From contig NZ_LMPS01000004.1 in NCBI RefSeq assembly GCF_001424405.1, forward strand, positions 182,537 through 246,536: a DNA stretch of 64,000 nt, in the 5' to 3' direction. Position numbers and translations under genes: made by a program. Of this stretch, positions 1,725-18,168 are shown in pieces. Numbering within the stretch: position 1 is the first letter of the stretch; the number at the start of each line of letters is the position of its first letter. The stretch comes from Dyadobacter sp. Leaf189. GTDB taxonomy: Bacteria; Bacteroidota; Bacteroidia; Cytophagales; Spirosomataceae. The notes under the pieces are model-generated. The model searched no databases. It was given only the letters and a program-made list of their open reading frames with translations, and was not told where the DNA came from.

Positions 1725-4700
1725 CTAGAACCAAAAGCCGAGCTGAACGGAAATCCTGGGCTTTTCCTCGTTTTTTTCTTTGGGTATAAATGCGCCGGCC
1801 GCGATCGTGATCAGATCCACAGGCGCCAGCCAGATGCCCCCGCCATAGTCGAAATGCCAGTTGGAAGAAGGATCGTCTTCCAGCCACACACGACCGTGAT
1901 CAAAGCTGCCGAATATACCATAGGTAAGTGGCAATGCAGGATTGGCGCTATTCCCCAGTCTGACGCGCAGGTCGGTTGCGTGCCAGAAGCTGCTTGTGCC
2001 GTAAAACCGCTCCGTGCGGTAGCCGCGCAGCCCCTGCCTGCCGCCTATGACGGGCATTTGGAAAAATTCATAACCGTCTCCAAAGTTCAGGCCTGTTCCT
2101 GCCTGAGTGGCCAGGATGATATTTTCCCTGGCGTCCAGCGGGGTGTAGTATGACAAATGCGCGCGCAACGCAGCAAAGTTATAGCCTGTATTCAGGTTAC
2201 TCGTCCAGTTGAATGCCGCATTGAACCTGATCCCGCGATGGGGCGTGGAAATCTGGTCTACCCCATTGAAGTCAACCAGCAACTTGGCTCCTGAATAATA
2301 TTTCGTTTTAAAAATGTCTGTATCCAGTCCATTTTCCGGCGAAGTGATAAAGCGGCCCGCCGTTGCCTGAATGTCGTTGAACTCCGCATAAGGTCCCAGC
2401 GCAATAAAGCCGCTTGTTCCGGCGAAACGCTTTTTAATAGCTGGAAAAACGTACAATGCACTTTGACGAACACGGTAAAAACTGGGATCATCCACCGGCC
2501 GCACGGATTCATTACCTATACCCGCGTAGTTGAACGCGTACGTCGGGCCGCGATAATGCGTATCCAGGTAGAAATCGAACTTCTTAAATGCATTGATAAA
2601 ATCACCTGTATAATTGACGCGAAAGGCAAGTGTATGAAAAGCAAAGCTGGCGCCGAATGTCTGAATGGAAGCGTAAGGTTCTTTTTTAAAACCATATTTG
2701 GTCAGACTCACATTGGCACCCAAAAAAACACCGTCGTCAGGGTTATAGCCTGCTATGGGAATGGGAAGGAGGATATCGTAGTTACTTTCCGCACTTCTGC
2801 GCTCGTAGGTATTGAAGCCGTAATCGTTGGTCCGCTTATCGTTTGTCTCCGGCCCGGGCGAAACTGTATTTTCTTTCAGGTCATCATACACGATCGTTTT
2901 CCTGCTGCCTGAATGTACATTCGAACTGTCCACCACGAGATCTTTGCCGGTACCTCCCACTATGCGGATTTTGATCCCTTTTTTCACATCCCCTTTCACC
3001 AGGAATTCGTCCTCATCTCCATTGCCGTACAGGGTTACCACCTCTGTTTGCCCTGTTTCAAAAACGCGGCGAAAAGTCTCCTTTTTAAGCTGCCCCTTTT
3101 TACTGATCTCCGACACGGTCACCCGGGTATGCGCATCATCCAGCCTTTCCACCGCAAAACGCTCCTTTTCCTCCGATCCGATTACATTCACGGATCTGGC
3201 CAGAAATTCATAATGCGCCCTCGCAATGCGCATCAGGTTATCTCTTCGGGTCGTAATGCTTTTGATGGTCGCCGGCGAAGCGGCTTCCCTGGCTTCCTGC
3301 GGCCACGCCGAAAATGCATTACTGATCACACCGTCCGTCAGGCGTGCCTGTATAAACTCCACCTGCTCCTCCCATTGCTCCCAGCTCAGACCATTCAGAA
3401 AAGTACGGTCCATCATTCTCGCACTCCAGGTAGTCCATTTCATGCTTTTGATCTCTGGTGTAAAACTTTGCAGCTGCCGCAAAAAGGGTAGCGTTTGTCC
3501 TGCCACATTGGTAATAAAACCATCATACAATGAAAAAGCCTGGTCGCGGTCACGGGGAATGGGGCGCAGCAGATTACTCCCGTCCTTTTGTTTGATGGAG
3601 GCCCAAGCCCATTGATCGTCGTGCCGGTCCCAGTCGCCGATCAAGAAATCAAAAAGCCGGGTACGCAGCATCCAGGGCTCATCGATCCTGCTTTTGTTAT
3701 TTTCCAAAATGCTCTCAACCACATCGGGGGTACTGATGATCTTATCGGCATTCCCGAAATAGGCAGCGTCTTTCCACTTTTTGCCGTCGGGCCGCTCCTC
3801 AAACAAATTCATGGTGCCGCCAAAAACGGGATTATAGCTGGCAAGCGCGGGCTGGGCAGGTACATACACCAGCTTCGGGTTGGTGTGATACACCTGAATA
3901 GCCTCCGCCATTGACGGCATTGCCAGCGGTGCAAATGGATTGGTGGACAGGAAATTATCTTCTACCACGTATTTGGCAGCCGTCATTTTGTTGAATGGAG
4001 CCGGCAAAAACCGCGTTACATCTTTCGTCAGTCCGCGCAGTACGTATTCTTTTCCGTCCTTGGCGCGCAGCCGGAGCGAGTTGGTCTGGTTGCCGCCACC
4101 CTGTTTTACCGGCGTCAGTCCTCCCAAAGTCTGGTCAAGATCCATGACCGGAAATGTGTATTTGCGTGTGTAAAGGTCCCTGTTGTGCGTACCGAATAAG
4201 GCTTTGTGAAATTTACCCACTGGCTTCACTACCGTTTTGCTCACAAATTGCAAGCTGGAATCCGCCTGCTGCGCATATTCTGCAAAATGCGTTGCGGGAT
4301 CGATTGCCGCCACTTTAAGCGCGTCTTTGACTTTCTTCTGAAATATTACTTTTGCATCTTTCCCGTCTTTACTGACCTCCCAATACCGGACCCAGGTCTC
4401 TCCGCCTTCATAAAAACTGAGCGTACTGAAACCGACAGACGTGGAAGCAAACTGCGAACCTTTGCCCATTCCGACGGGGCTGTTTTTTGAGCCGCTGCCG
4501 CTTACAATCATTTTCTGGTCGTCGTTCTCTATATATTGCAACGTATGTTCGTGCCCACTGGCAATGATGAAGTTCCCATTCTTTTTAGCCCCCGCCAGAA
4601 TGGCCGTTCTCAGATCTTTATAATGCTGATTGGCCACATCCTGCCTGGAACCGATGGTACCCCGGAAAATAGCCGCCAGACTACCGATCACCGGAAGCGG

Positions 4701-5513
4701 GATGTACAATTTTGGATTGATATCAGTGAGCGGAAATAAATGCTGCCTGAAAGTATACTTGCCACCGTGCGGACCGTAGGTATAAGGCGGGTGATGCATG
4801 GCGATCACCACGTTCTTGTTTCTGTACTTACGGACTACGTTCTCAAACACAAACCTGAAATGTTCGCGGTTCTTGATTTCGCAGCCGTCATTGATCCTGG
4901 GATCTTTATCCCAGTCGGCCAGCCACCACTGCGAATCCACCACAATGATCACTACATTGTCGTTAAGCTCCACCACTTCCGGGCCGGAGCACGCGTCGAG
5001 CGGGAGAAAATAGTTTTCATAGTCCTCCTTATCCGTTTTCCCGCGGCGCGAATTGAGATATTCCTGCACATATTTCTGCTGGCGCTTTACCCCCTTGATC
5101 CCCCAACCACGCCAGTCGTGGTTACCGGGCAGAAAAATGGGATATCCTTTGAACCCGTCAAGTGTTTCCAGCTGGGAGTCGATCCGGTACTCGGCCACTT
5201 TTCGTTTGGCCGAATCCTCTGCGGGCGGCATACCGTATTCGTAAATATTGTCCCCCATAAACAATGCGGAACTTTCTTTCGGCTCAGTGGCCAGCTTTGC
5301 TTTGAGGTATTCCAAAACTGGTGCCGGATGCTCGGGGGAGTCATTTCCTGCGTCCCCGATCAGGTACATCGTGTGTTTGAGCTTCAACGAAGGATCGGGT
5401 GCATTTGACTGCCAGTCCTGTGCCTCCCGGGAGTAGCGGGTGCGGTAGCCTGCGCAGGATGCAAGTATGGATGAAATGATTAAGAGAAAACCAAATCGTA
5501 ATAGTCGGGGCAT
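1725..5513 (-). CDS. Outer-membrane lipoprotein: metallophosphoesterase, kinase-like region, BamA/TamA-type barrel
   Basis: A 1262-residue protein. I took the ATG at 5513, because the frame extends upstream only to a TTG and this ATG gives a clean lipoprotein signal (LASC, Cys20). Residues ~48-330 carry all the calcineurin-like phosphoesterase motifs: GDAGN (53-57), GDN (87-89), GNHDW (130-134), HHP (240-242), GHEH (320-323). Residues ~440-690 are unassigned by standard reading but contain GDWDRHDDQW (626-635) and IPRDRDQAF (652-660). This spacing resembles the catalytic and metal-binding loops of CotH/Fam20-type atypical kinases. Residues ~850-870 have a GGTGKD turn. From ~906 to the terminal Phe runs a beta-barrel with the GLRGYR motif (1161-1166) typical of BamA/TamA/Omp85 proteins. 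The first and last domains are confident; the kinase-like call is inference. The gene stands alone, 50 bp after an HxlR gene on the same strand. Confidence 0.85.
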   Translation of the reverse strand: MPRLLRFGFLLIISSILASCAGYRTRYSREAQDWQSNAPDPSLKLKHTMYLIGDAGNDSPEHPAPVLEYLKAKLATEPKESSALFMGDNIYEYGMPPAEDSAKRKVAEYRIDSQLETLDGFKGYPIFLPGNHDWRGWGIKGVKRQQKYVQEYLNSRRGKTDKEDYENYFLPLDACSGPEVVELNDNVVIIVVDSQWWLADWDKDPRINDGCEIKNREHFRFVFENVVRKYRNKNVVIAMHHPPYTYGPHGGKYTFRQHLFPLTDINPKLYIPLPVIGSLAAIFRGTIGSRQDVANQHYKDLRTAILAGAKKNGNFIIASGHEHTLQYIENDDQKMIVSGSGSKNSPVGMGKGSQFASTSVGFSTLSFYEGGETWVRYWEVSKDGKDAKVIFQKKVKDALKVAAIDPATHFAEYAQQADSSLQFVSKTVVKPVGKFHKALFGTHNRDLYTRKYTFPVMDLDQTLGGLTPVKQGGGNQTNSLRLRAKDGKEYVLRGLTKDVTRFLPAPFNKMTAAKYVVEDNFLSTNPFAPLAMPSMAEAIQVYHTNPKLVYVPAQPALASYNPVFGGTMNLFEERPDGKKWKDAAYFGNADKIISTPDVVESILENNKSRIDEPWMLRTRLFDFLIGDWDRHDDQWAWASIKQKDGSNLLRPIPRDRDQAFSLYDGFITNVAGQTLPFLRQLQSFTPEIKSMKWTTWSARMMDRTFLNGLSWEQWEEQVEFIQARLTDGVISNAFSAWPQEAREAASPATIKSITTRRDNLMRIARAHYEFLARSVNVIGSEEKERFAVERLDDAHTRVTVSEISKKGQLKKETFRRVFETGQTEVVTLYGNGDEDEFLVKGDVKKGIKIRIVGGTGKDLVVDSSNVHSGSRKTIVYDDLKENTVSPGPETNDKRTNDYGFNTYERRSAESNYDILLPIPIAGYNPDDGVFLGANVSLTKYGFKKEPYASIQTFGASFAFHTLAFRVNYTGDFINAFKKFDFYLDTHYRGPTYAFNYAGIGNESVRPVDDPSFYRVRQSALYVFPAIKKRFAGTSGFIALGPYAEFNDIQATAGRFITSPENGLDTDIFKTKYYSGAKLLVDFNGVDQISTPHRGIRFNAAFNWTSNLNTGYNFAALRAHLSYYTPLDARENIILATQAGTGLNFGDGYEFFQMPVIGGRQGLRGYRTERFYGTSSFWHATDLRVRLGNSANPALPLTYGIFGSFDHGRVWLEDDPSSNWHFDYGGGIWLAPVDLITIAAGAFIPKEKNEEKPRISVQLGFWF

Positions 5514-17187: not shown

Positions 17188-18168
17188 CTATCTTCTGCTC
17201 AGACGTAAAAGCCTGTCGAGAACAATTTTTGAATAGTTGCTTTTGCTCTCCTCCGACAGCCGCGAATTTTCAATACGCTTCATAGTCTGGTTTTGAAGGT
17301 TGATAAAGATATCGAGAATGCCGGTTGCCCTTTTCTCGGCTATTCCTAGGCGCTTTGCAAAGCCGATAAAATCCTGCCGGCCGTAATATCCATTTGCCGC
17401 GTAAAAATCCGTATCCAGACATCCTTCACAAAGCTCTAAGGCAATATCGGTTTCATAAGGTGTGTGCAGCTTGGTACTCATCAGATCATAGGCGGGTGTA
17501 AGTCTGTACTCGCCTGATTCATGTTGTATCAGTGAAAAGTTTTTGAGATGCGCGTCTCCATTCCCGACTATATAATTGAATACGACCAGCCTGAAAAGTG
17601 CTTCAAGCGCGGGTGGCGCGGCGGCAACGTGTTTTCGGATCAATATCCCGATCTCCTCGTAGGTAGCATCGTACTTGTAATTTTGTCCGTTGGACGCGGT
17701 AGTCCTGTTCAAAAGCTGGGCAAAATCCTCCTGCTGGTATTTCTTTCCGTCAGTTTTCAAATCAAACCTCCTGGTTATGTAGGCAGGCTGTCCGTCATCG
17801 AAGAAGATGAGCGCATTTGCGGCGGTACGGATCTTGAATACCTGCTCAGCGATCTGCATGGTAAGATGCTCGTTTTCAGGTGCATCTTCAATTGCAAGCA
17901 GCTGAGTGGAAGGCGGCACCGGTTTTACAATGTATTCGCCTTGATTTTCGGTCAGTATCAATGCTTTCTCCTCGCGGCGCAGGGAATATTTGAGTTGTAC
18001 ACCCGAAATGGAGAGTCTCGATGTGTGTTTCAGATAGTCCGGGAGATTTTCAGATTTCGGCGCCGCATACGAAAGGCGCGCGGCGATTTTGATCCCGTCG
18101 AAAAGCCTTTTACTGCATTTGGGACAAAAATCATGTTTCGATTCCCGATAGCACGCTGCACACTGCAT
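17188..18168 (-). CDS. HipT-like Ser/Thr kinase toxin with N-terminal zinc ribbon
   Basis: A 326-residue protein equivalent to the kinase core of HipA without its N-terminal subdomain, which is encoded separately just upstream. A four-cysteine ribbon begins it (Cys3, Cys6, Cys15, Cys18). The loop LSISGVQLKYSL holds Ser53-Ile-Ser55, matching the SIS autophosphorylation motif described for HipT. Lys82 (YIVKP), the catalytic GNGDAHLKN (202-210, Asp205) and the metal-binding YDLMST (Asp228) are intact, so it should be active. HipA kinases phosphorylate aminoacyl-tRNA synthetases (GltX for HipA, TrpS for E. coli HipT); which one here is unknown. It is third in the B-S-T operon, starting one base after hipS ends. 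Confidence 0.88.
   Translation of the reverse strand: MQCAACYRESKHDFCPKCSKRLFDGIKIAARLSYAAPKSENLPDYLKHTSRLSISGVQLKYSLRREEKALILTENQGEYIVKPVPPSTQLLAIEDAPENEHLTMQIAEQVFKIRTAANALIFFDDGQPAYITRRFDLKTDGKKYQQEDFAQLLNRTTASNGQNYKYDATYEEIGILIRKHVAAAPPALEALFRLVVFNYIVGNGDAHLKNFSLIQHESGEYRLTPAYDLMSTKLHTPYETDIALELCEGCLDTDFYAANGYYGRQDFIGFAKRLGIAEKRATGILDIFINLQNQTMKRIENSRLSEESKSNYSKIVLDRLLRLSRR

Follow-up and report, generated by a model that had tools for sequence, protein, structure and literature searches.

What is the middle of a protein doing when its N-terminal part is a recognizable phosphoesterase, its C-terminal part is a recognizable outer-membrane barrel, and the residues between them match no family above its cut-off? 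This question is raised by a gene in the 64,000-nucleotide stretch of Dyadobacter sp. Leaf189 DNA analyzed here (the window; contig NZ_LMPS01000004.1, positions 182,537 to 246,536), whose product joins a calcineurin-like metallophosphoesterase domain (MPE), a kinase-like middle domain (KIN) and an Omp85-type barrel. The reading we favor, at a probability of roughly 0.55, is that KIN makes the protein an extracytoplasmic enzyme of a divergent kinase-like type, anchored through Omp85, which is linked to envelope phosphate or polyphosphate and is probably periplasm-facing and catalytically active. The parts of this reading differ in strength: a kinase-like fold seems quite likely, and catalytic activity is slightly favored. 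As a whole, the kinase-like reading is supported by conservation and by the register of the C-lobe loops, not by tests of the N-lobe, and it is unproven.

Across 65 KIN domains (three short hits were skipped in this count), most members keep the residues of a catalytic-loop-like segment (D627 in 63, D629 in 60, R630 in 63, H631 in 56, Q634 in 59 and W635 in 64), of a metal-loop-like segment (D655 in 60, R656 in 60, D657 in 58) and of a segment near Lys488 (G487 in 56, R493 in 58, K497 in 61). A first-pass annotation of the same DNA, which had proposed the kinase, named poor conservation of Asp629 and Asp657 among homologs as a finding that would speak against it; both residues are kept in most members, and occur together in 40 of 40 proteins that combine MPE, KIN and barrel (fused proteins) and were not chosen by the loop motif. 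Its candidate ATP lysine, Lys488, has to be given up: this residue is not among the positions conserved in the 65 domains, and Gly487, Arg493 and Lys497 are.

The loci behind these counts were not a random sample. L001–L030 are the best matches, L031–L070 and L286–L305 were picked from hit lists for diversity of layout, and L071–L150 come from a search with the pattern DWDR[HTS]x[DGE][QN]W and cannot show conservation of that loop; counts described as outside the pattern-selected set leave out L071–L150. Final counts were taken by distinct KIN domain, without near-copies and cut open reading frames (ORFs); alignment rows under 55–60% coverage were dropped, and the profile described below also lacks rows of more than 85% identity. 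Outside the pattern-selected set, Lys497, Asp629, Gln/Asn634 and Asp657 are all kept in 40 of 40 fused proteins, in 29 of 40 proteins with KIN and barrel, and in 11 of 13 with KIN only. All seven MPE metal ligands are kept in 36 of the 40 fused proteins, and the remaining four, two of which also have alignment gaps there, still keep the KIN residues. Here ‘fused’ means that phmmer still recognizes the MPE, which misses more degenerate copies (for example, in L133). Judged by these residues, the KIN site in fused proteins is constrained no less than the phosphoesterase site, and independently of it. The first-pass picture of a phosphatase and a kinase in fixed opposition is therefore not supported, because the KIN residues stay in place in proteins with a degenerate MPE, and many relatives have no MPE.

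We compared a KIN profile of 153 rows and 331 columns with profiles of CotH (47 rows) and HipA (33 rows). Against CotH the E-value is 0.02, none of 100 column permutations reaches the score, and the reversed profile gives 0.34; against HipA the corresponding values are 0.029, 1 of 100 and 0.31. For scale, CotH against HipA gives 0.0015 in the same profile set. None of 21 decoy families falls at or below 0.03, the best being 0.039, after a twenty-second was dropped that contains part of KIN (L303, E 4.6e-8). In these comparisons Asp629 aligns with the catalytic Asp of CotH and of HipA, Gln634 falls at the position of their metal-binding Asn, and the stretch from VDxxxxLRxRLFDxLIGDWDRHxDQW to PIPRDRDQAF is aligned with a CotH stretch that carries the catalytic Asp and an IPWD.D..F loop.

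Searches with single sequences gave fainter traces of the same kind. In a PDB sequence search, CtkA is third of five weak hits (E 0.65) and the sole one on the catalytic loop, where its DRHNGNW pairs with DRHedqW. Fam20C (PF06702) matches 1 of 41 members (E 9e-4, 19.4 bits against a cut-off of 26.8), ending on DWDRH, and CotH (PF08757) matches 2 of the 41 (E 0.018 and 0.1; best 15 bits against a cut-off of 23.8). In the window protein, NCBIfam BN159_2729 matches the catalytic-loop region (residues 599–650; window 3561–3716, minus strand) at E 0.032 and 0.0077, far under its cut-off. HipA_C (PF07804) gives no match in the window protein, nor any at E up to 1 in 30 members scanned one by one, and the families listed for larger sets, 25 of 34 for 41 members and 25 of 40 for 70, do not include it. 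PF06702 matched none of 118 phylum genomes, but no control genome matched either, and its absence is not shown by this search. A separate gene in the window, about 12 kb from the one discussed here, does match the HipA_C family (E 2e-41; 17311–18015, minus strand).

What stands of the proposed kinase is a pair of near-invariant Asp loops, both in register with those of CotH and the catalytic one also with HipA, CtkA and Fam20C, and several observations weigh against it. The links to kinases are all weak and stay under the Pfam cut-offs, and the same rows are hit by unrelated Pfam or NCBIfam families with comparable or better E-values; in the PDB search, CtkA ranks below two unrelated chains; and neither CotH nor Fam20C is among the 25 of 40 families listed for the 70-row set. 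Global alignment does not recover the N-lobe, and when the N-lobe was compared alone, permutations attained the score in 5 of 60 and 2 of 60 cases. At the site itself, 115 of 116 fused proteins have Gln where a metal-binding Asn is usual, and active-site residues are lost in 13 of the 53 MPE-less KIN proteins outside the pattern-selected set (11 of 40 with barrel and 2 of 13 with KIN only). ATP is scarce in the periplasm. Finally, the genome that carries the window has PPK1 and PycTM on other contigs than the gene, so the polyphosphate link discussed below rests on relatives.

The Gln substitution, the degenerate members and the placement of Arg493 at the end of a YxLR stretch all speak for the alternative that survives best, in which KIN would be a pseudokinase or binding module with a kinase-like fold that senses a nucleotide, polyphosphate or phosphosugar and, transferring no phosphate itself, acts by gating or recruitment. 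We consider this unlikely: degenerate members are a minority, and the four site residues are complete in every one of the 40 fused proteins outside the pattern-selected set. The Gln is a signature of the family and may reflect altered chemistry. Pseudokinase candidates, with degenerate active sites, do occur among the KIN-barrel proteins (L043, L045, L046, L054–L059, L301 and L302), and in four of these position 657 is Tyr.

Weak profile scores and an unrecovered N-lobe could also mean that KIN is no kinase relative but an unrelated fold that stands in for POTRA in an Omp85 protein serving assembly or translocation, with the DxDRH/DxDxxF match arising from convergence or chance. Passages of PMC4104836 call protein assembly the most conservative hypothesis for Omp85 subfamilies of unknown function. 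This explanation appears rather improbable, as the loops keep the same register against four kinase groups and 14 uncut ORFs carry KIN without a barrel in the same ORF, and KIN is hence not tied to Omp85 assembly. Very divergent kinase-like families occur in bacteria, for example in the Legionella pan-kinome, where, according to parts of PMC9758233, structure prediction confirmed them.

The architecture in which KIN sits was largely as first described: the ORF is confirmed on the minus strand, the MPE, both loop motifs and GLRGYR were found again in place, and the three modules are borne out by a Pfam Metallophos match, by Omp85 barrel signatures and by two relatives in which they are separate ORFs (Table 1). 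The N-terminus, MPRLLRFGFLLIISSILASC, is of the lipobox-like kind. Pfam Metallophos matches residues 74–258, over its cut-off, and the MPE motifs (GD 53–54, GDN 87–89, GNHD 130–133, HH 240–241 and GHEH 320–323) supply a complete set of metal ligands (D54, D88, N131, H132, H241, H321 and H323). At the other end, NCBIfam Omp85_fam matches residues 1086–1230 with 63 bits against a 200-bit cut-off, Pfam ShlB matches the barrel under its cut-off, and GLRGYR is presumably an Omp85 loop-6 type motif. No Pfam POTRA match appears in the protein at E up to 10, and residues ~430–905 match no Pfam or NCBIfam family above cut-off. Stand-alone KIN ORFs of ~425 residues match just model positions 1 to 337–341 of 431, which places the domain border near residue 771; the linker beyond it (772–905) is not present in the shortest KIN-only relatives. 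A search of its own genome found the gene at one place only.

Table 1. Features of the MPE-KIN-barrel gene, in window coordinates.
Feature	Position	Strand	Basis
Whole gene, 1262 aa	1725..5513	minus	ATG at 5513, stop 1725–1727
Signal peptide with lipobox LASC (residues 1–20), then AGYRT, without acidic export motif	5454..5513	minus	Sequence and family counts
Calcineurin-like metallophosphoesterase domain (MPE), residues 46–400	4314..5378	minus	Pfam PF00149, E 3.6e-5, and conservation
Kinase-like domain (KIN), residues ~436–771	3201..4208	minus	C-terminal border from stand-alone KIN ORFs (~425 aa)
Gly-rich stretch GGGNQTN, residues 472–478, candidate nucleotide loop	4080..4100	minus	G472–G474 in 58–59/65, Q476 in 57/65
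Lys497, with Arg493 a candidate ATP-binding basic residue	4023..4025	minus	K497 in 61/65, R493 in 58/65
Catalytic-loop-like GDWDRHDDQW, residues 626–635	3609..3638	minus	Conservation and profile alignment
Metal-loop-like IPRDRDQAF, residues 652–660, DxDxxF	3534..3560	minus	Conservation and profile alignment
Gly/Asp-rich linker, residues 772–905, probably beta judging from sequence	2799..3200	minus	No POTRA match
Omp85-type barrel, residues 906–1262	1728..2798	minus	NCBIfam Omp85_fam, E 3.4e-17; split barrel ORFs match Pfam Omp85
GLRGYR, residues 1161–1166	2016..2033	minus	R1163 in 155/161, G1164 in 160/161

In a set of 296 genomes from across the phylum, 145 match at least one part of the window protein, and 115, representing 63 of 140 genera, match KIN. 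The 177 distinct KIN domains in the fetched loci fall into three layouts, MPE-KIN-barrel (116), KIN-barrel (46) and KIN alone (15), with locus ends cutting 6, 3 and 1 of them, respectively; the three cut KIN-barrel ORFs are cut on the N-side and may have lost an MPE in this way. Two genomes encode KIN, MPE and barrel in three neighboring ORFs (L031:2841-6793 and L032:5051-9094); in both, Pfam recognizes Metallophos in the MPE ORF and Omp85 in the barrel ORF, each over its cut-off, and the L031 KIN ORF matches no Pfam family at E up to 0.01. A tree of 108 KIN domains, built by a quick method with fused rows thinned to 55, contains eight switches between MPE-bearing and MPE-less proteins when two cut rows are set aside, and seven without six long branches, which indicates that modules were exchanged repeatedly. 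KIN-only genes also occur side by side, three in L287:2129-7148 and two in L286:3436-6775, and at each of these loci one KIN-only gene has Ser at the catalytic Asp position.

The stand-alone KIN proteins inspected start with a lipobox (L031, L286, L287), a signal-peptide-like segment (L034) or a hydrophobic anchor (L033, L149, L288–L291), and all nine KIN-barrel proteins inspected have signal-peptide-like starts; in the layouts inspected, KIN therefore looks extracytoplasmic. A lipobox-like pattern is present in 41 of 113 fused proteins uncut at the N-side, a count from first-start ORFs and a simple pattern in which misses and false hits are likely. Surface lipoproteins of Bacteroidota carry a motif of acidic residues at positions +2 to +6, and the N-termini of Omp85 proteins usually face the periplasm; at least two acidic residues at +2 to +6 occur in none of the 41. 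We therefore depart from the first-pass annotation, which had called the product a surface protein, and infer that the MPE and KIN domains are probably periplasmic. It is very doubtful that the barrel, as in a type Vd autotransporter, carries MPE and KIN to the cell surface to scavenge or modify extracellular phosphate compounds: the order of enzyme and Omp85 barrel is that of patatin-Omp85 fusions such as PlpD, but no POTRA match lies next to the barrel, whereas PlpD reportedly carries a POTRA domain, stand-alone KIN proteins have export signals of their own, and the lipobox-bearing fused proteins lack the acidic surface-export-like motif, a count that leaves a barrel-mediated route untouched. 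Translocation is one possibility raised for the ‘Metallo’ group of Omp85 proteins in passages of PMC4104836.

The genes around KIN point toward phosphate. Among the three genes on either side of 137 KIN genes in 139 loci, the most frequent families are HD-PycTM (65), an SdiA-regulated lipoprotein (38, of which 37 on the same strand), histidine kinases (28) and PPK1 (21), followed by adenylate/guanylate cyclase (18), DUF6268 (14), PAP2 (12) and a SixA-like phosphatase (12); each name comes from a single example of its cluster that was scanned with Pfam, and related genomes were counted separately. The subset of 57 KIN genes from genome searches, as opposed to the set picked by similarity, has HD-PycTM 17 times, PPK1 10, SdiA-regulated 9, histidine kinase 9, SixA 6, PAP2 5, cyclase 3 and DUF6268 once. 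A cluster of HD-PycTM, PPK1, SdiA-regulated lipoprotein, SixA-like, PAP2, DUF6268 and cyclase genes recurs around KIN in many lineages (L031–L150, L286–L305); in Pfam, PycTM carries the description of a Pycsar effector.

In 25 of 56 genomes a KIN match has PPK1 no more than 20 kb away, and in eight of these no more than 6 kb, against a rough chance expectation for 20 kb, from genome size, of ~1%. The 56 are those of the 115 KIN genomes with both genes listed, neither a complete nor a random set, and the 25 span nine family codes, with 15 in a single one (f23), mostly at 12–13 kb; among them the KIN match of one (G208) is partial and that of another (G118) is a stand-alone copy. CotH beside a VTC polyphosphate polymerase was considered as a supporting theme and set aside, VTC and DUF4956 each accounting for only 1 of 10 neighbor proteins, which is too few. 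The recurrent neighbors suggest a place in phosphate or polyphosphate metabolism or in stress signaling, not a specific reaction, and we consider a link of the KIN family to polyphosphate in particular less likely than not.

If the kinase-like reading is right, the protein could work as follows. KIN would take the position that POTRA holds in an outer-membrane-anchored Omp85 protein, with an MPE preceding it in many, not all, relatives. Its active site would be of the CotH/HipA/Fam20C type, formed by GGGxQ, Lys497 or Arg493, a catalytic Asp629 in DxDRHxxQ and a metal-binding DxDxxF with Asp655 and Asp657, and it would modify an envelope molecule with phosphate or with a nucleotide. The MPE, where intact, would act on phosphate compounds in the same compartment as KIN. 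In its boldest form, which we regard as speculative, the proposal is of a phylum-wide, so far unannotated family of extracytoplasmic kinases, Omp85-tethered and often fused to an MPE, that would drive a periplasmic phosphorylation cycle coupled to polyphosphate, possibly with polyphosphate and not ATP as the donor.

More broadly, an active KIN would mean that a phosphorylation system of considerable size has gone unnoticed at the outer membrane of a common phylum, in a compartment thought to be ATP-free. It would also correct the label ‘metalloprotease’ in the Omp85 literature and give a POTRA-less Omp85 group a function, and a single purified domain with two point mutants would then suffice to test whether the donor is ATP or polyphosphate.

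As an enzyme domain fused to an Omp85 barrel, the window protein resembles PlpD, the patatin-Omp85 protein of type Vd, but PlpD has a patatin lipase and a POTRA, neither of which is seen here. Omp85 proteins have at least one POTRA according to parts of PMC11116518. Fusions of MPE to Omp85 are already in print: passages of Heinz & Lithgow 2014 (PMC4104836) describe a ‘Metallo’ subfamily with PF00149, which they term a metalloprotease, and the window protein has the same layout, with PF00149 placed ahead of an Omp85 barrel that lacks POTRA. In Pfam, PF00149 is the calcineurin-like phosphoesterase family, and the main text of PMC4104836 nowhere uses ‘kinase’, ‘phosphatase’ or ‘phosphoesterase’. 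Its passages, by contrast with the present analysis, do not include the middle domain, the occurrence of that domain without MPE or barrel, or the gene neighborhood. Nor is the domain treated in the portions consulted of the literature on Omp85 with MPE, kinase or CotH-BamA, including PMC10281475, a scope that most subscription journals fall outside. A secreted Bacteroidota metallophosphoesterase with phosphatase activity, likened here by description only, is that of Riemerella anatipestifer (Niu et al. 2021), which differs in being listed, in parts of PMC10202324, as a type IX secretion effector.

Among kinases, the Golgi Fam20C family (PF06702) has the DRH catalytic motif in common with KIN, although the KIN family match stays under the PF06702 cut-off. 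HipA and CtkA (PF07804) share the catalytic loop D-x-H-x-x-N/Q in register; HipA is a cytoplasmic toxin, whereas KIN proteins have export-type N-termini. Parts of PMC12189002 describe HipA as the toxin of toxin–antitoxin modules and CotH as keeping the equivalents of PKA D166, N171 and D184. CotH (PF08757), whose cut-off the scanned members do not reach, has its catalytic loop and its DxDxxF loop in the same order and register as KIN, and the KIN family differs from it in its Gln for Asn, its Omp85 anchor and its fusion to an MPE.

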